Positions 706 through 9,712 of a DNA stretch of 28,155 nucleotides are shown in pieces. Made by a program: the position numbers and the translations under genes. The DNA is taken from positions 1-28,155 of IMG/VR virus record IMGVR_UViG_3300043803_000684; one strand, written 5' to 3'. A model generated the notes under the pieces. It was not told where the DNA came from. It ran no database searches and saw only the letters and a program-made list of their open reading frames with translations. The stretch is from a virus. Every line of letters begins with the position of its first letter. Position 1 is the stretch's first letter.

Positions 706-1272
706 ATGAATACTCGCAAGCTAATCCTGTTCAATGGGCCACGTCACAGTGGCAAAGACACAGCAGCAGATCATGTTTGGTCTGTATTCCCTGATACAAT
801 GCGGTTCAAAATGAGCCGCCCATTGAAGGATGGTATCAAAGCCTTCTTCAATCTAACCGATGCGCAGGTTGCGTATCTTGAAAGCAAGAAAACTGAGCCA
901 GATGAATTGCTGTTTGGCAACAGCTATGTTGATGTACAGATCAGCATGTCTGAGTATTGGGCCAAAGATAAGTTTGGTATGCGTGTGTTTGGTAAGCTAG
1001 CGTTGCGAGAGATACAAGCATCGCCAAGCAAGCTATTCGTATGCAGTGATAGTGGCTTTGACTATGAAGCTGCTCCGTTGTTGCCATACTTTGGTGTGTC
1101 TAATGTGTTGTTGGTGCGGCTGCATCGTCCTGGCAAAACATTTGAAGGTGATAGCCGTAGCTACATTGACTTGCCAGACATACGCGGCACTATTGACATA
1201 ACAAACTCAGGCAGCACAACGTACTTCCGTGAACAGATCGAGGAGACAGTGAAGATATGGTTGAGTCTGTAG
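706..1272 (+). CDS. Deoxynucleoside monophosphate kinase-like P-loop protein
   Basis: A 188-aa protein with a P-loop near its N-terminus (residues 8-18, GPRHSGKDTAA), which fits phage deoxynucleoside monophosphate kinases and related adenylate-kinase-like enzymes. These phosphorylate dNMPs to dNDPs with ATP in the cytoplasm and feed replication. The region after the P-loop (FKMSRPLKDGIKAFF) resembles the lid and substrate-binding part of that group. ATG at 706 is preferred over the in-frame GTG at 685 because GGAG at 693-696 sits 9 bases upstream of it and it does not overlap the helicase gene. Its 3' end overlaps the polymerase gene by 16 bases, which suggests coupling. Family assignment rests on the P-loop, size and replication context; substrate is not determined by what I can see. 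Confidence 0.75.
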   Translation: MNTRKLILFNGPRHSGKDTAADHVWSVFPDTMRFKMSRPLKDGIKAFFNLTDAQVAYLESKKTEPDELLFGNSYVDVQISMSEYWAKDKFGMRVFGKLALREIQASPSKLFVCSDSGFDYEAAPLLPYFGVSNVLLVRLHRPGKTFEGDSRSYIDLPDIRGTIDITNSGSTTYFREQIEETVKIWLSL

Positions 1273-2963
1273 GAGAATTGAACCGTGAGTTCATACGTAA
1301 AGCACAAGCTGCTCAGCTTACTACGGATTGCCTTGCTGACGGTAATTTCGGCAGCACTATTGCTATTGTTTGTGAAGCACCTGGGTTTAGGGAAACACAA
1401 CTAAAAGTACCGTTAGTAGGTGGATCAGGCCGCTTTCTATGGGATGTGTTGAAGGGCTTTGGTTTGCACCGACAACACTTCTACATTACCAATGTAGTGA
1501 AGCGACAACTGATAGATAGCAAAGGTGGCGGCAGTCACCAATGGGGTGACGGCGGTAAGAAGGGCATTGCGCGTAATGAGTTAGCACATTGGACTGCATT
1601 GCTGAAATGGGAATTGTCACAGCTACCTAACCTCAAGCACATATTGGTGCTTGGTGACATTGCATTGCAGGCTATTGTAGGACAGAGTGGCATTGATCAA
1701 TGGCGTGGCAGTGTAGTTGGTGATGGAGAACGTGACTTTATCATCGCACACAATCCTGCAAACATCTTACGTAAGCCATCATTAGAACCCATATTCCGCT
1801 TAGACATAAGCAAGCTAGATATGGTTCGGCGCGGTGTGTGGCGTGAGTATAATGTCACACCTATCTACGATCCATCACCGAATGAAGCAGTGCAGTGGTG
1901 TGATCGTATGATACAAGAAGGTAAGCCAGTATCATTTGACATTGAGGTAATCGCAAATGAAACCGCGTGTATCGGCTTTGCAAATGACGCACATGAGGGC
2001 ATGTGCATCAACTTCCGTGGCTTATCAAACAATCGTTGGACAGTGGCTGAAGAAGCACAAGTTAGGCGCGCAATACAGCGAGTCCTCCGCCATGCAAGTG
2101 TTCAACTTGTGGCGCAAAATGGATGCTTCGATAGTGCGTGGCTTTGGTATAAAGATCGTATCAAGGCAAAGCCGTTGTGGATTGACACACTACTTGCACA
2201 TCACACGCTGCATCCCACATGGCCACACAATCTTGGCTTTCTCACTGCACAGTACACCACACATCCATTCTATAAGAATGAGAAAAGTGACTGGAAAGAG
2301 GGTGGTAACATTGCCGACTTCTGGATATACAACGTCAAAGATGTGTGCATTACTTGGGAAGTGGCGCGTAGGATTGAGAAAGAGTTAGCATCACAGAAAT
2401 TGTGGGATTTCTACCGCAATCATGTGATGCGACTACAGCCACATCTAATTGCCTCTACGGTGCTAGGCAATCGTGTTGACATTGCAATGCGCAAACAATT
2501 AGAAATGGAGTTTGGTACGAGTGTTGACAAACTGAGTGCAGAGTTTGTTGCCGCAGCACGCATTGCTACTGGTGATGACACGATCAATCCAAATCCAAAC
2601 TCACCACAACAGCTTGGTAAGCTGTTCTTTGAACAACTACGCTTACGTGGTAAGACTGCAAGCACTGATGAAGCTAACAGGCTTGTAATGATTGAGAACC
2701 CGCATACTAGTGATGCGGCTAGGCACATGCTAATCCTGCTTAATAAATACAAGGAGCAGCATAAACTATACAGCACATACATCACCGCAGAGATTGATCC
2801 AGACAATCGTATGCGTAGTGATTACAAGCAGTATGGAACACAGTTTGTGCCTGGCCGTTTGTCTAGTAGCCACACATTGTGGGGTAGCGGCATGAACCTA
2901 CAGAACCAACCTGAAATGCTGAGAGGCATGTTCATAGCAGATAGGATGATGTTCGATGATTAA
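1257..2963 (+). CDS. UDG-like domain + 3'-5' exonuclease + N-terminal part of family A DNA polymerase
   Basis: A 568-aa N-terminal half of a split DNA polymerase. Residues ~30-190 look like a family 4/5 uracil-DNA glycosylase fold: EAPG at 40-43, PLVGGSGRFL at 52-61, TNVVK at 78-82, LVLGD at 130-134 and HNP at 165-167 in place of the usual HPS. Residues ~222-375 are a DnaQ-like proofreading exonuclease with all three motifs: FDIE (D228, E230), AQNGCFD (N288, D292) and YNVKD (Y358, D362). Residues ~385-560 are the polymerase thumb and early palm, with GRLSSS at 533-538 and NLQNQP at 547-552. The chain ends after MFIAD, just before motif A should begin. The missing catalytic part is encoded at 3399-4232. 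The gene starts inside the kinase gene (AGGAG at 1241-1245), and its ATGATTAA end overlaps the next gene. UDG activity is inferred from motifs only. Confidence 0.85.
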   Translation: MVESVGELNREFIRKAQAAQLTTDCLADGNFGSTIAIVCEAPGFRETQLKVPLVGGSGRFLWDVLKGFGLHRQHFYITNVVKRQLIDSKGGGSHQWGDGGKKGIARNELAHWTALLKWELSQLPNLKHILVLGDIALQAIVGQSGIDQWRGSVVGDGERDFIIAHNPANILRKPSLEPIFRLDISKLDMVRRGVWREYNVTPIYDPSPNEAVQWCDRMIQEGKPVSFDIEVIANETACIGFANDAHEGMCINFRGLSNNRWTVAEEAQVRRAIQRVLRHASVQLVAQNGCFDSAWLWYKDRIKAKPLWIDTLLAHHTLHPTWPHNLGFLTAQYTTHPFYKNEKSDWKEGGNIADFWIYNVKDVCITWEVARRIEKELASQKLWDFYRNHVMRLQPHLIASTVLGNRVDIAMRKQLEMEFGTSVDKLSAEFVAAARIATGDDTINPNPNSPQQLGKLFFEQLRLRGKTASTDEANRLVMIENPHTSDAARHMLILLNKYKEQHKLYSTYITAEIDPDNRMRSDYKQYGTQFVPGRLSSSHTLWGSGMNLQNQPEMLRGMFIADRMMFDD

Positions 2964-3171
2964 GCAGAAGTCACACATTATTCCTCTCACACCATACACA
3001 ACGGCTAGTGAGCGCGGCCTGGACATTCACACAGAATGGGTGAAGATCAAAGCACGTAGCAAATCACGTGAGTTAGCCGAGGAACGCATGATTGCGTACA
3101 TGGAGCAGTCATCTGCATACAGAGGAATGTCATATGAAGATATGATAGAGTATGCAAAGGGGTTGCCTTAG
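2956..3171 (+). CDS. Small unknown protein inside the polymerase break (71 aa)
   Basis: I do not recognise this protein. It is 71 residues, mostly charged and probably helical (KARSKSRELAEERMIAYME), without a signal peptide, membrane segment or cysteine cluster. Its ATG overlaps the TAA of the polymerase N-terminal gene (ATGATTAA), an arrangement typical of stop-restart coupling, and AGGA at 2943-2946 can serve as binding site. It is followed after one base by another small gene. It shows no homing endonuclease or intein motif. Its position between the two halves of one polymerase is its only functional clue: it may be a passenger of whatever event split the gene. Support is the frame, the tight overlaps and the operon context. 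Confidence 0.6.
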   Translation: MIKQKSHIIPLTPYTTASERGLDIHTEWVKIKARSKSRELAEERMIAYMEQSSAYRGMSYEDMIEYAKGLP

Positions 3172-3172
3172 T

Positions 3173-3394
3173 ATGATCCCAGGCTTTCGGATGCCTAAGC
3201 CAGCATCACTTACAAACGACCAACTAGCAGATGCTCTCAAAGACTTAGACAGACATTGGGATGCATTGATTGTGCTCAGCGCACAACACAATAATCCCAA
3301 TATAATGTGGCTGGAAGATTACTACTCAGACCTGGTTGATGAAATACGCCGACGCATTGTGCGATATAGACAAGCAGAACGCGCAAGGAGATAA
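3173..3394 (+). CDS. Small unknown protein inside the polymerase break (73 aa)
   Basis: An unrecognised 73-aa protein, predicted mostly helical, with an acidic middle (LEDYYSDLVDE) and a strongly basic C-terminal tail (RRRIVRYRQAERARR). ATG at 3173 is chosen over the in-frame ATG at 3152 because AAAGGGG at 3156-3162 lies 10 bases upstream and the gene then begins 1 base after the preceding stop. Its last codons contain the AAGGAG ribosome binding site of the polymerase C-terminal gene, so translation through this gene probably helps load ribosomes on that gene. The basic tail could bind nucleic acid, but this is only a guess from charge. Confidence 0.55.
   Translation: MIPGFRMPKPASLTNDQLADALKDLDRHWDALIVLSAQHNNPNIMWLEDYYSDLVDEIRRRIVRYRQAERARR
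3385..3390 (+). promoter_or_regulatory. Ribosome binding site of the polymerase C-terminal gene
   Basis: A near-consensus AAGGAG sits 8 bases before the ATG at 3399. It matters because it shows the catalytic half of the polymerase has its own translation start, rather than being a downstream exon that depends on splicing. It also fixes the start at 3399, against the longer open frame that begins at 3336 inside the preceding gene. Confidence 0.75.
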
Positions 3395-3398
3395 GATC

Positions 3399-4232
3399 AT
3401 GCAAACAGCAGCAATCAGACGCACCAGAGAAGAACAACTTGTCTATGTGTACTTCGATGGTGCGCAAGCAGAAGCCCGTATTGTCGGGTGGGAAGCGAAG
3501 ATCATCAAATGGAAGGAGCAGTTTGAACGTGCAAGACTTAACCCAGGAAGCTACGATGCTCACATCGCACTTGCCAGTGAGATGTTCAAAGTGCCATATG
3601 ATGCTGTCCCTAAGTTTGACTATTACGATAAAACCAACGCAACACCAGAACACCCTATCGGCAGCCTTTCACTTAGAGCAATCAGCAAGCGATGCAGACA
3701 TGGGCTTAATTACCGAATGCAAGCTGCAAGACTCGCTGCCACAACAGGACTGTCCATTAAAGAAGCTGAACTTGCCTATGCAGCTTATCATCGGGCAACA
3801 CCAGAACTAAAGATATGGTGGAAAGTTATCATTGATGAAGTGTACAAGCATCGTGCATTGTGGACTTGTCTTGGCAGACGCATGGAGTTTCCAGGTAGCC
3901 GCATTGACGAGGACTTGTTAGACAGTATCATCGCATTCAAGCCACAATCAACACTAGGTGACTTTGTTTGTGGAGTACAATATAAGTCACAAGAAGATGA
4001 TAAATGGCCACGCTATGCTCGGATACCGTTTAATAATCACGACAGCCTCACTGCAATGTGCCGTGAGCGTGACGTGCAGCGTGTCGCAGCTATAATGCGC
4101 AAGTATGCTGAAAGCCCACTAATCATCCACGGTGAACCACTGATCATTCCTGCGGATTTCAAAGTCAGCTATGCAGATGAACAAGGTGTGCATCGCTGGT
4201 CCAACATGAAGAAGTTGAAGTTTGATGCCTAA
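3399..4232 (+). CDS. Family A DNA polymerase, C-terminal catalytic half
   Basis: A 277-aa protein carrying the palm and fingers missing from the gene at 1257-2963. Motif A is DGAQAE at residues 20-25 with catalytic D20. The O-helix (motif B) is RAISKRCRHGLNY at 93-105, with R93 and K97 in the dNTP-binding positions. Motif C is NNHDS at 212-216 with catalytic D215. The end (PADFKVSY, then W267 and KKLK) resembles the usual C-terminus of phage family A polymerases. The O-helix position that is Phe762 in E. coli Pol I and Tyr526 in T7 polymerase is His101 here by my alignment. The first ~12 residues before VYVYFDG look like added sequence giving a new start. The two chains probably assemble into one UDG-exonuclease-polymerase. 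The end overlaps the HNH gene by 8 bases. Confidence 0.87.
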   Translation: MQTAAIRRTREEQLVYVYFDGAQAEARIVGWEAKIIKWKEQFERARLNPGSYDAHIALASEMFKVPYDAVPKFDYYDKTNATPEHPIGSLSLRAISKRCRHGLNYRMQAARLAATTGLSIKEAELAYAAYHRATPELKIWWKVIIDEVYKHRALWTCLGRRMEFPGSRIDEDLLDSIIAFKPQSTLGDFVCGVQYKSQEDDKWPRYARIPFNNHDSLTAMCRERDVQRVAAIMRKYAESPLIIHGEPLIIPADFKVSYADEQGVHRWSNMKKLKFDA

Positions 4233-4482
4233 GAGATCACCAAGCAGCAAACAAGGAACACGCTATATCAAGGCCAGTGATCGCAGAAACATACGTGCGA
4301 AGCTATTTGCAGCACAAGGCGGTTACTGCGCATTATGTGGAGATGCAATGGAGTATGAAGATGCAAACATAGATCACATCATACCAGTGTCGCTAGGCGG
4401 CACAAATCGGTATAACAATCTACAGCTTGCACATGCTTCATGTAACAGGCGGAGACAAACTAAATGTATCGTGAAGCCGTAA
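4225..4482 (+). CDS. Small HNH endonuclease
   Basis: An 85-aa McrA-type HNH nuclease. It has the zinc pair C35-x2-C38 and the catalytic DH at 50-51 (in ANIDHIIPVSLGG). N65 and H70 follow, then the second zinc-type element C73-N74 (HASCNRRR). The metal-dependent ββα fold nicks or cuts DNA. ATG at 4225 is used; a TTG three bases upstream is less likely. It overlaps the polymerase C-half gene by 8 bases and the DUF3987 gene by 19 bases. It could be a phage packaging/recombination nuclease or a free-standing homing endonuclease. Its place directly beside a split gene makes homing worth considering, as HNH genes are linked to split genes in T4-type phages. No specificity domain is visible besides a basic N-terminal ~30 residues. 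Confidence 0.85.
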   Translation: MPKRSPSSKQGTRYIKASDRRNIRAKLFAAQGGYCALCGDAMEYEDANIDHIIPVSLGGTNRYNNLQLAHASCNRRRQTKCIVKP

Positions 4483-5711
4483 AAGAAGGCACATTCTTGG
4501 ACAAGTACTTGCAGTACATGAGTCCACTAGAAACACCAATAGCATACGACTTCTGGTGTGGTATATGGCTTCTCAGCAATGCAATTGGGCGGCGCATGAT
4601 TGTGAACCGTCCAAAGGCACCAGTGTTTCTCAATCTGTACATTGTGTTATGTGCAGAAGCAGGCACTACACGCAAGTCAACAGCTATTCGTATGTGCGAA
4701 CGTGTGTATCGTGCCGCTGGGTTTCATACAGATGCTGTGACTGTCACAGGAAATATCACACCAGAGAAGCTGCGTGAACAGTTAGCACTACAGACCATTG
4801 AACACAATGCCGCTTCGTGCGGTATATTAGTCAGTGAGTTAGTAACATTTCTAGGCAAAGAGCAGTACGCCATTGCAATGCCAGGATTGCTCACTGACTT
4901 GTACGACTGTCCTGAATTGCGTGAATACAGTCGCTTATCTACTAGCACGACTACGGTGCGCAATGTGTACTTAACATTTGCAGCAGCATCAACACCTAGC
5001 TGGCTAGTACGTGCGATCAATCCTGATGTTATTGAAGGCGGTTTTACCAGCCGATGCTTGTTCATCATCGAAGAACGGCGCAAACGGCTTGTTGCTTGGC
5101 CAGAAGAATTGACAACTGATGTGGATGAATTAGCAATAGCGCTGTGCGATATACGCAAGCAAGCAGATAACTGGTCAAAGCATGGCATAAATCTAACAGA
5201 CAAGGCCAAGGCACGCTTTGTTCGTTGGTATGAGCAGAGGCGTGATGGAGATAGTAACGATCCATTTCTAGCATCATTTGAAGCTAGAGAGGATCATCAC
5301 ATACTGCGACTAGCAGCATTGCTGAGTGCGAATGATGAAAGCTGGATGATTGATGTGCATCATATCAATCATGCAATCAAGATTATCCAGCATAATAAAG
5401 TATCAGCAGCACACTTATTCGGCGCTAATAAAGAAGCAATGCGCATGACTAATGGCATAGACAAACTGCGCACTGTGCTACTAGAAGCTGGTGAGTTAGG
5501 TATAGGTCAGAGCGATGTGCTATTCAAAACACGTAGATACCTAAAGACACGTGAACTAGAGTATGCGCTAGCCATCATGCATGAAATGGAAATGGTTCAG
5601 CGCTTTGATGTAGCTACACAAGGCAGACGCAAAACAGTGTGGCGTGCTACTAACAAAATACTAGCGCGCAACTTAAACACACTGATGCTTGAGAAGCTGA
5701 CTGCTACTTAG
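4464..5711 (+). CDS. DUF3987-type primase/helicase ATPase
   Basis: A 415-aa protein with the layout of the DUF3987 family of phage and plasmid replication ATPases. The N-terminal part (PIAYDFWCGIWLLSNAIGRR) resembles the lead-in of that family. A degenerate P-loop, AEAGTTRKSTA, lies at 64-74, with K71 and S72 kept and the last glycine replaced by R70. A Walker B-like GILVSELVTFL is at 120-130. A probable arginine finger sits in GGFTSRCLF at 192-200. The C-terminal ~90 residues look like a winged helix (AGELGIGQSDVL to KTVWRA). It probably supplies replicative helicase or primase-helper activity beside the split polymerase. GGAG at 4451-4454, 9 bases upstream, supports the ATG. It is the last gene of the + operon, and its TAG overlaps the stop of the opposing gene. 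Confidence 0.72.
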   Translation: MYREAVKEGTFLDKYLQYMSPLETPIAYDFWCGIWLLSNAIGRRMIVNRPKAPVFLNLYIVLCAEAGTTRKSTAIRMCERVYRAAGFHTDAVTVTGNITPEKLREQLALQTIEHNAASCGILVSELVTFLGKEQYAIAMPGLLTDLYDCPELREYSRLSTSTTTVRNVYLTFAAASTPSWLVRAINPDVIEGGFTSRCLFIIEERRKRLVAWPEELTTDVDELAIALCDIRKQADNWSKHGINLTDKAKARFVRWYEQRRDGDSNDPFLASFEAREDHHILRLAALLSANDESWMIDVHHINHAIKIIQHNKVSAAHLFGANKEAMRMTNGIDKLRTVLLEAGELGIGQSDVLFKTRRYLKTRELEYALAIMHEMEMVQRFDVATQGRRKTVWRATNKILARNLNTLMLEKLTAT

Positions 5712-8700
5712 CGATGAAGGCGCGGAAACTGATCCAAGCCTTTCATTGGATCAATGTCAGCAATACGCACTCGCCTACCAGTATCATCAGATATGTCAGC
5801 TTCAACACTAAGCATTGCTTGATATATCTGTGCATTTATCTCTCGCACTTCTTGCGCAGTCTGATTGGTACGTGTGCGTAGCTGCCCAGGATCGGCACGA
5901 AGAATTGGTGAACTGTTCAGTGTTCTCAATTCTTCTAGCTTATCCTTACGTTGTTGTTGCAGCTTACTAATCTGTGAATTAAATTGTGCAAGCTGCAACA
6001 ACACTGGCCGCATATCTTCTGGAACACCTGCACGACCACCACCAAACTCTGGTTCACGCAAGCGTGTGGATGGGCCAATCGTACCCTCACCACCACGTAT
6101 CTGCCCTAGATTGCGCGTGATTGTGTCTAGCTTCTGCTCCATAGCTAGGATTGTTTCGCCAACAACATCATTGCTGCGCATACGGCGCTCTTGGCCAAAC
6201 ATTGCGGGGCCTACAATACGCGCACCACCAGTAATGTTTGCACCATACTGCCCTAGCGTAGCTTTAGCCGCAGCACCTGTGCCTTCTGTACGCTGTACAA
6301 TGCCAAATGTACGCCACAGATCAAGCAATGACTCGCCACCATACCCCATTGCAGTCTGCAACACTGTAGCAGTGTAGCGATCACTCACATCATTGTTCAT
6401 CATCATACGATCAAGCGCTTTAGCGCTGCGATCAGGTGCAATACGTGGTCCAGTAGCAAAAGACATTGCATCTTGTACCGTGCTGCCAGTCAAAATGCGT
6501 GATGCAGCATCAACTGCGCCAAGCATTGGCACATCTGCACCAGCTAGGCCAATTGATGCGCGCATACGTTGATCATTTCCATCTTCAATGAGCCTATGCA
6601 AGCTATCACGCAGTGGTGCATAGCGTTCAGTGAAGAAATCAGGATTATCAACATCAAATCCTGCCTGAATTGATCCTAACACAGCACTAAAGAACGGAGC
6701 AAATGCTTGTTCTATAGGAATGCGAATGCTGCTTTCAGGATCATCACTGTTCCAGTAGAAACGAAATGCGCCAGCAGCATCACGACCATCACGTGTTAGC
6801 AAATGTGCTACAGATTTCGGTGGTTTGCCTTCTGCAATAGCGCGTTCATCGCTATCTACCGCAGATTGCAGCATTGCAGTGCCGAGCATTGTTGCAAACA
6901 TTGCAGTGCGTACTGCCATTGATGCTGGCTCACGCTTAAATGCTTTAACAGGCTGATGCGCACCTTGTACCATGATGTTTCCATACGGCACCATAGACAA
7001 AATGCCTTGCACAATACGATAATTACCATATTGCGATGGATCACCTGTTACAGATCGTGCATAGCCAATGACCCCACGCTCATTCCGCCCCTTATTCGCA
7101 CGATACATAGCACTTTGTGGTGCATTAGCTACCAGATCAAGAAACTTAGAGTAGCCTTGCCATATGCGACGTGCCGTAACTGGTGTAATTCTCGCACCTT
7201 GTACAGCAGCATACTCTCGAAACTGTTCTAGTGAGCGTATTTTAGATATATCAGGAGCAAATCCACCGTAATTCATCACCTTCGCATATTCAGGATTATT
7301 CTGCGCAAGATTGCGCATCTGCGCAGCAAAGCCTGTCAGTCCTTGTCCTTCCATAGCATAGGACAAACCTTGCGCAATCAGCCCCTCGCTTTTCATACGA
7401 TGCAAGTCACTTGCTTCATAGCTGCGCTTAAATGCATCAGCCATTGCTTGTGCGCGCACTGGTCCTAGCTGATTAGCAATAAAGCCATTCTTGTCTAGTG
7501 AACGCTGCAATGCATTGCCAATTACCTGCCCGCGCAAATCCCACAAGTCACGCAATGGCGCAGCTAGAACCTGTGCAAAGAATGTTGGATCAACAATGCC
7601 TAGCTTGCGCGGGCTGATGCCTGTGCTGTTCTGTATCCACTTGTCAAGAATGCCAATGCGCATGTTTGATGGCGCACTGATAAGCGCAGCTACTGCACCC
7701 ATGGCCATCGACGCTGGTGCTTGCAAGTTTCCTAGCAGAAAGCCTATAGGCCCTGTAGTCATTTTCTGTTCTAACATACGTGCTGCATTAGCAATAGGCA
7801 CAAATGCACGTGGATATGGCAACAAGCCTTGGCTTATTGTTGGATCAAGCTCTAGCAGAAAGCGTGTCCCATTATGATCACGAAATGGTACTGCAATGTA
7901 TGCAGGATCAGTCTTAACACCAGGACGATCCACTAGCACGCGACCAATGCCAGTTACAGGCTTGGCACTACCACTAGGAAACGTACTGGATAGATTATTA
8001 GCAACAGCTTTTAGCGCTTCATTGCGACGAATGAAGTCAAGTGTCTGCCCAATCCCATCCTGCATATTCATCATAGCATCTTGATAACGATCAGGGCCAG
8101 CGTTCTCAGCACGGTTACGACTTGTAAGTGGTGAGTTAGTTTCTACCGCTGATACAATAGGGCTAAGTCCTGCGCGCTGATTACGTTCAAGCACTAGATC
8201 AGCAATCATGCGATGCATATAATTAGGGTTCATTGTGCGCATATCATTCACTTCTTTGAGTGACCATATGCCACGACGCTGGCCGTAATCTAACAATGCA
8301 TTGTTAATTTTGCGGTAATCATCTACAATCTTCACTACTTCTGGTGAACGCATACCCTCAGCAACACGTTGCTTTAGTGTTGCATCATCTATGTCAGACA
8401 GCGCTGATCTACGTGCCTCACCTTGCACTTGCTTACCAGTAAGCGGATCAGTGCGCCATGCAGGATCAGGTACTTGTTTGTAATGTCCGGTAACAGGATC
8501 ACGCACAGTCTTAGTGCGATTGACATTAGCCCTGCGAAGGTCTAATTCATCCATAGCAGCAAGCATGTCATTGAAACGTGTGAAGTCGTCACGCCTAGTA
8601 ACTTGATCAACATTCTTACCACGAAGCAATGATGCACGATATGCAACCTCACGTGGTGCTTCTGTTTTGCTACCGCCAGGAAACAGGCCAGTATCCCAAA

Positions 8701-9712
8701 ACTCACGAAACACATCGCTGTTAGCAGCTTCATTGGCGTGAGTAATGACTGTGCCAATGATGCTATCACCTTCTTCACGAGTGATAACGCCATCACGCAC
8801 ACGTTCATCTATGCGATTATTCAAGACTGTATATTGATTGAACAATCCATTCTCAACACCTTCAATCGCACCAGTCATAGGCTGCATACCGCTAGGCGTA
8901 CCGGGCTGTGTTAGTGCAGATTGATTAGCAGCATCAAGCTGACGCTGTGTAAAGCGTTGTTGATACCTAGCAGCAGCACCAACACTGAGAACAGCTAATC
9001 CACCCACAACCCATGGCAACACATCTTGCGCAGTCTCATACCATGACCTTTGCCCAGGCGGCACAATGTCATTGAATGGGTCAGCAGGTGGTGCTGGTAT
9101 TACAGCAGATGTAGTACGTGGCGGATTGATGCGCGCAAGTCGCGCTTCATCAGCGGCATCAGCTAATTGCTCTGCGCCGTATGACAAGCCTGCACCAGCC
9201 GCAGCGTTTAATGCAATGTTACCAGCATTGTATGGTGCCGAACCAGGCAGCGCAATCTCACCTACACGAACCGCACCGCCAATCGTACTAGCTACACCAG
9301 GAGTTTGCTGTAATCTTGTTGGCAACATACGCACGATGCGATTAGCAGTGCTTGCAGTAGTAGCTACAGGACCACCAAGGGGAATCAATGCTGGTCCAGC
9401 AGTTTGCACTAACGCACGTACTGGATCATCCTTAAACTCAGCACGAGGCATGATGTTTCTGTCTAAGAATGCATTAGCATCACGACTCCAATTAGTGAGT
9501 CCCTGACTGCCACTTAAATAACCAGCAAGGCCAGCAATATCTGGCACAGCACCAGTAAAGCCACGTGCAATATCCATTGCAAGGCTAACACCAGGAATGT
9601 TGCGAATGATGCCACCATTAGCTGCACGACGCGGTGACTGTACAATGTCAGCAAATGGATCAGCAGCTTGCGGTGCAGCTACAATGTCAGCAAAGGGATC
9701 AGTACCACTCAT
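5708..9712 (-). CDS. Giant internal virion / DNA-ejection-type protein (1334 aa)
   Basis: A 1334-aa protein at the end of the late operon. By size and place it corresponds to T7 gp16, the ejection protein that crosses the host envelope, but I see no clear lysozyme or transglycosylase motif. Visible parts: DPFADIV at 5-11 and 18-24 and DPFNDIV at 210-216; a hydrophobic helix at ~231-247 (LPWVVGGLAVLSVG); a long helical, Ala/Arg-rich middle; more hydrophobic stretches (for example GNIMVQGAHQPVKAF to AMFATMLGTAML); and a coiled-coil C-terminus (QFNSQISKLQQQRKDKLEEL). The second half resembles the LPD38-type region of phage polyvalent proteins, which is a weak recollection. ATG at 9712 overlaps the upstream TGA (ATGA). 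The likely role is a virion protein injected with DNA; membrane insertion is inferred. Confidence 0.7.
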   Translation of the reverse strand: MSGTDPFADIVAAPQAADPFADIVQSPRRAANGGIIRNIPGVSLAMDIARGFTGAVPDIAGLAGYLSGSQGLTNWSRDANAFLDRNIMPRAEFKDDPVRALVQTAGPALIPLGGPVATTASTANRIVRMLPTRLQQTPGVASTIGGAVRVGEIALPGSAPYNAGNIALNAAAGAGLSYGAEQLADAADEARLARINPPRTTSAVIPAPPADPFNDIVPPGQRSWYETAQDVLPWVVGGLAVLSVGAAARYQQRFTQRQLDAANQSALTQPGTPSGMQPMTGAIEGVENGLFNQYTVLNNRIDERVRDGVITREEGDSIIGTVITHANEAANSDVFREFWDTGLFPGGSKTEAPREVAYRASLLRGKNVDQVTRRDDFTRFNDMLAAMDELDLRRANVNRTKTVRDPVTGHYKQVPDPAWRTDPLTGKQVQGEARRSALSDIDDATLKQRVAEGMRSPEVVKIVDDYRKINNALLDYGQRRGIWSLKEVNDMRTMNPNYMHRMIADLVLERNQRAGLSPIVSAVETNSPLTSRNRAENAGPDRYQDAMMNMQDGIGQTLDFIRRNEALKAVANNLSSTFPSGSAKPVTGIGRVLVDRPGVKTDPAYIAVPFRDHNGTRFLLELDPTISQGLLPYPRAFVPIANAARMLEQKMTTGPIGFLLGNLQAPASMAMGAVAALISAPSNMRIGILDKWIQNSTGISPRKLGIVDPTFFAQVLAAPLRDLWDLRGQVIGNALQRSLDKNGFIANQLGPVRAQAMADAFKRSYEASDLHRMKSEGLIAQGLSYAMEGQGLTGFAAQMRNLAQNNPEYAKVMNYGGFAPDISKIRSLEQFREYAAVQGARITPVTARRIWQGYSKFLDLVANAPQSAMYRANKGRNERGVIGYARSVTGDPSQYGNYRIVQGILSMVPYGNIMVQGAHQPVKAFKREPASMAVRTAMFATMLGTAMLQSAVDSDERAIAEGKPPKSVAHLLTRDGRDAAGAFRFYWNSDDPESSIRIPIEQAFAPFFSAVLGSIQAGFDVDNPDFFTERYAPLRDSLHRLIEDGNDQRMRASIGLAGADVPMLGAVDAASRILTGSTVQDAMSFATGPRIAPDRSAKALDRMMMNNDVSDRYTATVLQTAMGYGGESLLDLWRTFGIVQRTEGTGAAAKATLGQYGANITGGARIVGPAMFGQERRMRSNDVVGETILAMEQKLDTITRNLGQIRGGEGTIGPSTRLREPEFGGGRAGVPEDMRPVLLQLAQFNSQISKLQQQRKDKLEELRTLNSSPILRADPGQLRTRTNQTAQEVREINAQIYQAMLSVEADISDDTGRRVRIADIDPMKGLDQFPRLHR
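5730..5753. other. Hairpin at the convergent gene junction
   Basis: A perfect 8-bp inverted repeat (TGATCCAA and TTGGATCA, 8-base loop) lies 19 bases past the + operon stop and inside the last codons of the - strand giant gene. Neither strand has a T-run after it, so it is not a classical intrinsic terminator. It may slow or process transcripts where the two operons collide, or be chance. Confidence 0.35.
9641..9702 (-). repeat. Tandem DPFADIV-coding repeat
   Basis: Two 23-base copies (9641-9663 and 9680-9702) differ at one base and encode DPFADIV twice, 13 residues apart, at the N-terminus of the giant protein. A third, diverged copy at 9063-9084 encodes DPFNDIV. The spacer encodes an Ala/Pro-rich linker, which suggests a short linear binding motif on a flexible tail. 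Confidence 0.75.

Follow-up and report, generated by a model that had tools for sequence, protein, structure and literature searches.

Can a family A DNA polymerase, a textbook single-chain enzyme, work from two genes? The question is raised by a 28,155-base virus record, a metagenomic contig that we refer to at its full length as the window, in which two partial polymerase genes are separated by two small open reading frames (ORFs). Because unrelated phages have broken this enzyme at the same turn, we take the break for a functional arrangement rather than damage, an intron or an assembly error. Comparative analysis indicates that an ancestral single-gene family A replicase is now, very probably, carried by two translationally coupled genes whose chains assemble into one replicase. 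We infer both the assembly of the two chains and their joint polymerase activity.

Layout of the split polymerase locus

On the + strand, the end of a RecD-like helicase gene and a deoxynucleoside monophosphate kinase gene are followed by the polymerase N-half, the two small ORFs, the polymerase C-half, an HNH endonuclease and a DUF3987 primase/helicase. The N-half (1257..2963, +, 568 aa) was assigned by Pfam and PHROG to a UDG domain (PF03167, residues 29-176, E 4.9e-15), a 3'-5' exonuclease (PF01612, residues 219-377, E 2.6e-9), the thumb and the first palm strand. The C-half (3399..4232, +, 277 aa; PF00476, phrog_17) carries motifs A (DGAQAEAR), B (KRCRHGLNY) and C (NNHDS), and the motif A Asp, the motif B Lys and the motif C His-Asp are all present in the window. 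Both ORFs lie where the initial annotation had placed a split family A polymerase, and its reading of their content, with UDG-like, exonuclease and early polymerase regions in the first and a start before motif A plus the catalytic aspartates in the second, agrees with these matches.

Searched separately, the two halves gave complementary matches to the DNA_pol_A profile PF00476, covering positions 5-147 in the N-half (E 3.7e-8; 33.2 bits when taken alone, slightly below the 34.3 cut-off) and 147-357 of 381 in the C-half (E 3e-11). These matches abut exactly and cover the profile once, end to end, in keeping with the earlier proposal that the halves together hold each expected polymerase region once. 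The phrog_17 profile is likewise divided, with 566-1003 in the N-half and 1009-1239 in the C-half. Complementary matches to a single family, in order, on one strand and in an arrangement that recurs in other contigs, lie far beyond chance. The PHROG families of short ‘DNA polymerase’ proteins (phrog_9556, phrog_12241, phrog_2573 and phrog_5995) match N-halves up to, or C-halves from, approximately the break, so that split or intron-cut PolA genes have already been clustered as separate families. For the UDG domain (window 1257-1850), the nearest solved structures are type-4 UDG/UdgX entries (E 1.7e-8); its first residues show no CxxC pair, so that an iron-sulphur cluster may be missing.

Two other genes do lie inside the break, as first noted: a 71-aa ORF (2956..3171, +) and a 73-aa ORF (3173..3394, +), neither of which has a family assignment. 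For the second, ATG 3173 (protein start MIPGFRMPKP) is a more likely start than 3152 (80 aa), as in one relative (L003). The C-half has its own ATG at 3399 and, 8 nt ahead of it, a Shine-Dalgarno-like AAGGAG (3385..3390, +), while neighbouring genes around the break each overlap or almost touch; the independent start and the tight coupling of the intervening genes described initially were thus both recovered. The N-half had been thought to stop right after MFIAD. MFIAD does lie near the end, but the frame runs six residues further, and the predicted free ends are ...MFIADRMMFDD* for the N-half and MQTAAIR..., from ATG 3399, for the C-half. Downstream follow the HNH endonuclease (4225..4482, +, PF01844), more likely starting at ATG 4225, and the DUF3987 primase/helicase (4464-5711, +). 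The genome's structural half begins with a 1334-aa protein on the - strand (5708-9712), which is probably a virion component.

The break recurs at one turn in related viruses

A search of IMG/VR with each half yielded 91 loci. The split sought in related genomes is carried by 13 contigs from 13 metagenomes, two of which (L002 and L013) have one half cut by the contig end; in approximately 65 other contigs with both regions complete, the polymerase is one continuous gene. Several of the split records are genome fragments, and none carries a closed classification. Two further candidates (L081 and L087) were rejected as split loci, being in fact fused genes in which the match ran beyond a stop. 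Distant viral relatives were scanned for more splits and gave fused genes only, and a host search among the genome contigs returned no match.

In the window clade, all split loci break at one and the same turn. The N tail reads GMFIADR..F(D/N)(D/E) or GMFIAPKIKIPEGM, the C head reads M...EE(S/Q)L..VYFDGAQAEAR, and the fused L024 has GMFIADPKYVYVYFDGAQAEAR at the corresponding place. In fused relatives, the match to the N-half query extends to residue ~562, and that to the C-half query begins at residue ~4-18. This is the turn leading into motif A, which by alignment corresponds to FIA|PEDYVIVSADYSQ (FIA|PEDY) of E. coli Pol I. The fused UDG-exonuclease-PolA relatives (L024-L091) have the same domains and motifs as the window's enzyme, and several also have a DUF3987 primase/helicase next, but theirs is one continuous gene whereas the window's is two.

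As the window is a metagenomic contig, one has to consider that a fused gene was misassembled or missequenced, and misassembly had been named at the outset as a way for the reading to fail. Recurrence of the break in 13 contigs from 13 independent metagenomes, with distinct inserts, leaves this explanation with practically no probability.

History of the split

In the full-length tree, the split sequences form one well-supported clade nested within fused relatives, with a single exception, the fused L024, which is sister to the split L022. In our reading the polymerase was one gene in the ancestor; the break is old and stable. The N-half tree groups L022 with L024 (support 99/96) and disfavours one split clade (AU p 0.013). 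The C-half tree is weaker for L022 plus L024 (support 90/87; p 0.155). The odd N tail of L022 is common to the main split group at the DNA level (42/44 nt with L005). Since this tail DNA is shared, the sequences favour one split followed by a later re-fusion in L024 over two splits at the same turn. L024 and L025, with a fused polymerase sister to split L022, are the candidate re-fusion.

Variable gap content argues against splicing

The gap between the halves ranges from 107 bp (L016/L017) to 790 bp (L004); its content varies with lineage, and its sequence is unrelated between lineages. L003 carries diverged copies of the window's two ORFs, and in L014 a 111-aa and a 98-aa ORF flank one window-type ORF. 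The gap ORFs of L005, L016, L006, L007, L008 and L022 are unrelated to the window's; that of L006 matches phrog_4837 and has a zinc-ribbon-like cysteine pattern, and that of L008 gives a weak WYL match and phrog_3715. Relatives of the 71-aa ORF were found in this gap only. The interval between C-half and primase (4225-4482 in the window; same place in L001-L018) is a second variable slot: the window group has the HNH endonuclease there, L006-L008 and L022 have different ORFs, and the fused L024 has none.

Among the gap ORFs of the window and the relatives scanned, no match to an endonuclease, maturase or intein was obtained. A gene split by a homing endonuclease was rejected, there being no endonuclease in the gap; the HNH gene lies downstream of the C-half and, being absent from several split relatives, is a neighbour and not part of the break. 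A fractured gene with a split intein was also rejected, with no intein family found in any ORF of the region and no room in an N tail that extends just 6 residues past MFIAD. The relative reading frames of N and C differ from locus to locus, which speaks against frameshifting or read-through, and both were rejected.

A self-splicing intron, or a relic that still splices, would yield a mature mRNA encoding one chain, and phage polA genes commonly carry introns. In the Herelleviridae (SPO1 type; Goe26, Goe19, BE07 and Moonbeam), polA is in pieces with small genes between them, as in the window, and these pieces are of the intron type; an intron was also proposed by the authors of the MEP401 report for their phages (PMC10580990). 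The Herelleviridae breaks, however, lie at or near TGRLSSxNP, upstream of the window's break, with HNH-type ORFs between the pieces, and a group I intron at the window's break was not encountered. The Rfam intron search returned chance matches only, whether run at the gathering score or with E relaxed to 10. The L016/L017 gap of just 107 bp is, to our knowledge, below the size of any known self-splicing intron, gap sequences are unrelated between lineages, the C-half has its own start, usually with a Shine-Dalgarno-like site, and the TAATG junctions of MEP401-like relatives (see below) leave nothing to splice. An intron therefore has only a slim chance of being the explanation, and splicing across the break, the other way in which the initial annotation could have failed, is very unlikely given the 107-bp gap and the lack of any intron match; the variable frames and variable gap DNA point the same way.

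Structural model of the two halves

In the window, N and C share one frame, and the whole stretch was read through as a single chain and folded with 47 relatives. In the resulting model both halves have a pLDDT of about 90, residues 567-695 form a disordered linker and the pTM is 0.78, with the placement of the halves partly built in through the fused homologues in the alignment. The fold is that of PolA, in that one alignment to the 6vdd_A crystal structure spans both halves, from 201 to 986 (Z 34.4, 542 residues, rmsd 3.7). The model shows the halves as complementary pieces of one predicted fold, which is not the same as binding. A second model, built with the split sequences alone, reached a pTM of 0.30 from an alignment of 12 sequences, too shallow to place the halves.

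Both halves are conserved

For split pairs with unsaturated dS, dN/dS is 0.07-0.10 in the N-half and 0.05-0.15 in the C-half, with similar values in fused pairs; by this measure both halves are under purifying selection (about 0.05-0.15). Protein distances of N and C correlate (r 0.95). All ten split rows keep the patterns of exonuclease II/III, GRLSS, NLQNQP, motif A and motif B, and 9/10 keep that of motif C.

These data bear on the idea that the polymerase is decaying, i.e., that a broken gene is kept by chance while the host or another enzyme replicates the phage. The interruption itself and the modest profile score of each half alone would fit such decay. Yet the low dN/dS extends across deep divergence in both halves, the catalytic motifs are kept, and stable splits exist in at least two other lineages. 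Moreover, in four split genomes of 42.0-44.7 kb (G002-G005) the two halves are the sole PF00476 matches, and PolB and PolIII alpha were sought and not found, so that near-complete genomes lack any other polymerase family that we could find. Decay as an explanation is highly improbable.

The halves might instead have separate jobs, the N-half acting alone as UDG and exonuclease, both domains being complete in it, and the C-half partnering another protein, e.g., a host factor. However, the N-half keeps its thumb/palm sequence up to the break (GRLSS, NLQNQP, FIAD) under equal constraint, and the C-half has no thumb and starts within the palm, and so needs the N-half as partner. This division of labour, too, we consider very improbable.

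The 3' end of the N-half (GATAGGATGATGTTCGATGATTAA, 2940..2963, +) is near-identical among split relatives. Its synonymous identity is 0.80 in split loci vs about 0.5 elsewhere and is not raised in fused relatives. The N-half overlaps the start of the next ORF (2956), and raised identity would be expected if this stretch also had to supply the following gene with its ribosome-binding site and start; the N-half end thus likely doubles as a ribosome-binding site.

Proposed two-chain replicase

Two separate chains, as proposed in the initial annotation, are the best-supported reading, with a conserved break, no intron or intein, purifying selection and no other polymerase found in near-complete relatives, although the phage might in principle rely on a host polymerase. 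In the mechanism we propose, one mRNA with coupled starts would give two chains, which would associate without a covalent join. The N-half would bring the UDG domain, the proofreading exonuclease, the thumb and the first palm strand, and the C-half the remainder of the palm, the fingers and both catalytic aspartates, so that the joined halves would form one PolA-shaped enzyme replicating the phage. The gap DNA would have no part in the enzyme, with small genes coming and going there.

A broader view, which we advance tentatively and rate somewhat below an even chance, is that phage family A replicases repeatedly undergo, and tolerate, fission at the turn preceding motif A, where an open gap swaps small genes while the flanking polymerase is kept, and that the split is reversible. 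Recurrence is based on two independent breaks at the turn and a third 10-12 residues away, and reversibility on fused L024 as sister to split L022. A natural two-chain replicase that is stable over large divergence, and convergent at one turn in unrelated phages, would show that a palm can be assembled from two polypeptides, and the break marks a natural site for split-polymerase reagents. The split loci also speak against the intron explanation that has been published for such breaks, and they carry a warning for annotation, since a polA gene labelled ‘partial’ in a phage contig may be a complete subunit.

Comparison with other split polymerases

The split phage polymerase as a kind is already known; the repeated break point and the cargo gap are the new points. 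The OM43 phages MEP401 and MEP402 (Zobellviridae) have a split PolA with a small ORF between the halves, for which an intron was suggested (PMC10580990), the sole report of a split family A enzyme found in a literature search mostly outside subscription journals. As in the window, the family A polymerase lies in two genes around a small ORF of unknown function, the second half has its own start, and the MEP401 break falls in the same turn ahead of motif A, with KTLFLSRYGE closing the N-half and MILNADAKALEW opening the C-half. Their polymerase, however, has no UDG domain and is far diverged from the window's. The two splits have separate origins, since fused sequences, namely L026-L033 and more distant outgroups, surround the window clade in the tree. 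All 77 readable MEP401-like loci are split at that same turn. In one MEP401-like subgroup (e.g., L140, L142, L143 and L147) the junction is TAATG with nothing between the halves, and Alcaligenes phage QDWS535 is split at the same turn by TAATG without an insert; as such junctions leave nothing to splice, they argue against the published intron suggestion for MEP401. In the MEP401-like L175, the C-half frame breaks at motif A at ~3697 (LNVINTSRRKALEW), through a frameshift or a sequencing error. Another split PolA gap (L179, MW202697.1) holds, at 2782-2988, a small gene with the annotation R67 dihydrofolate reductase.

Vibrio phage vB_VspS_VS-ABTNL-3 (MF497422, PVS_29/PVS_27) has a UDG-exonuclease-PolA N-half, a 184-aa ORF and a C-half, as in the window. 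Its break, however, lies 10-12 residues farther upstream (NLQNLPKGDG* / LPNIKKLFVPE), and its halves are 24-27% identical to the window's, which together point to a separate event. A search of viral contigs with its C-half gave no match.

The initial annotation had cited split family B gp43 as a precedent, which holds (PMC2988022), but had taken a split family A enzyme with a UDG domain to be less familiar; split family A polymerases have already been described in MEP401/402 (PMC10580990). In Aeromonas phages 25 and 44RR, the gp43A/gp43B replicase consists of two cooperating chains, as proposed for the window; it belongs to family B, whereas the window's enzyme belongs to family A, and its gap holds a seg homing endonuclease or untranslated sequence, whereas the window's has no endonuclease (PMC2988022). 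In phage 25, the split gp43A and gp43B co-purify and have polymerase activity, and the split NrdA of Aeh1 is active (PMC2988022). By analogy, the best reading of the window's locus is coupled translation into two chains that would assemble, in parallel with the split gp43A/B and NrdA of these T4-like phages.
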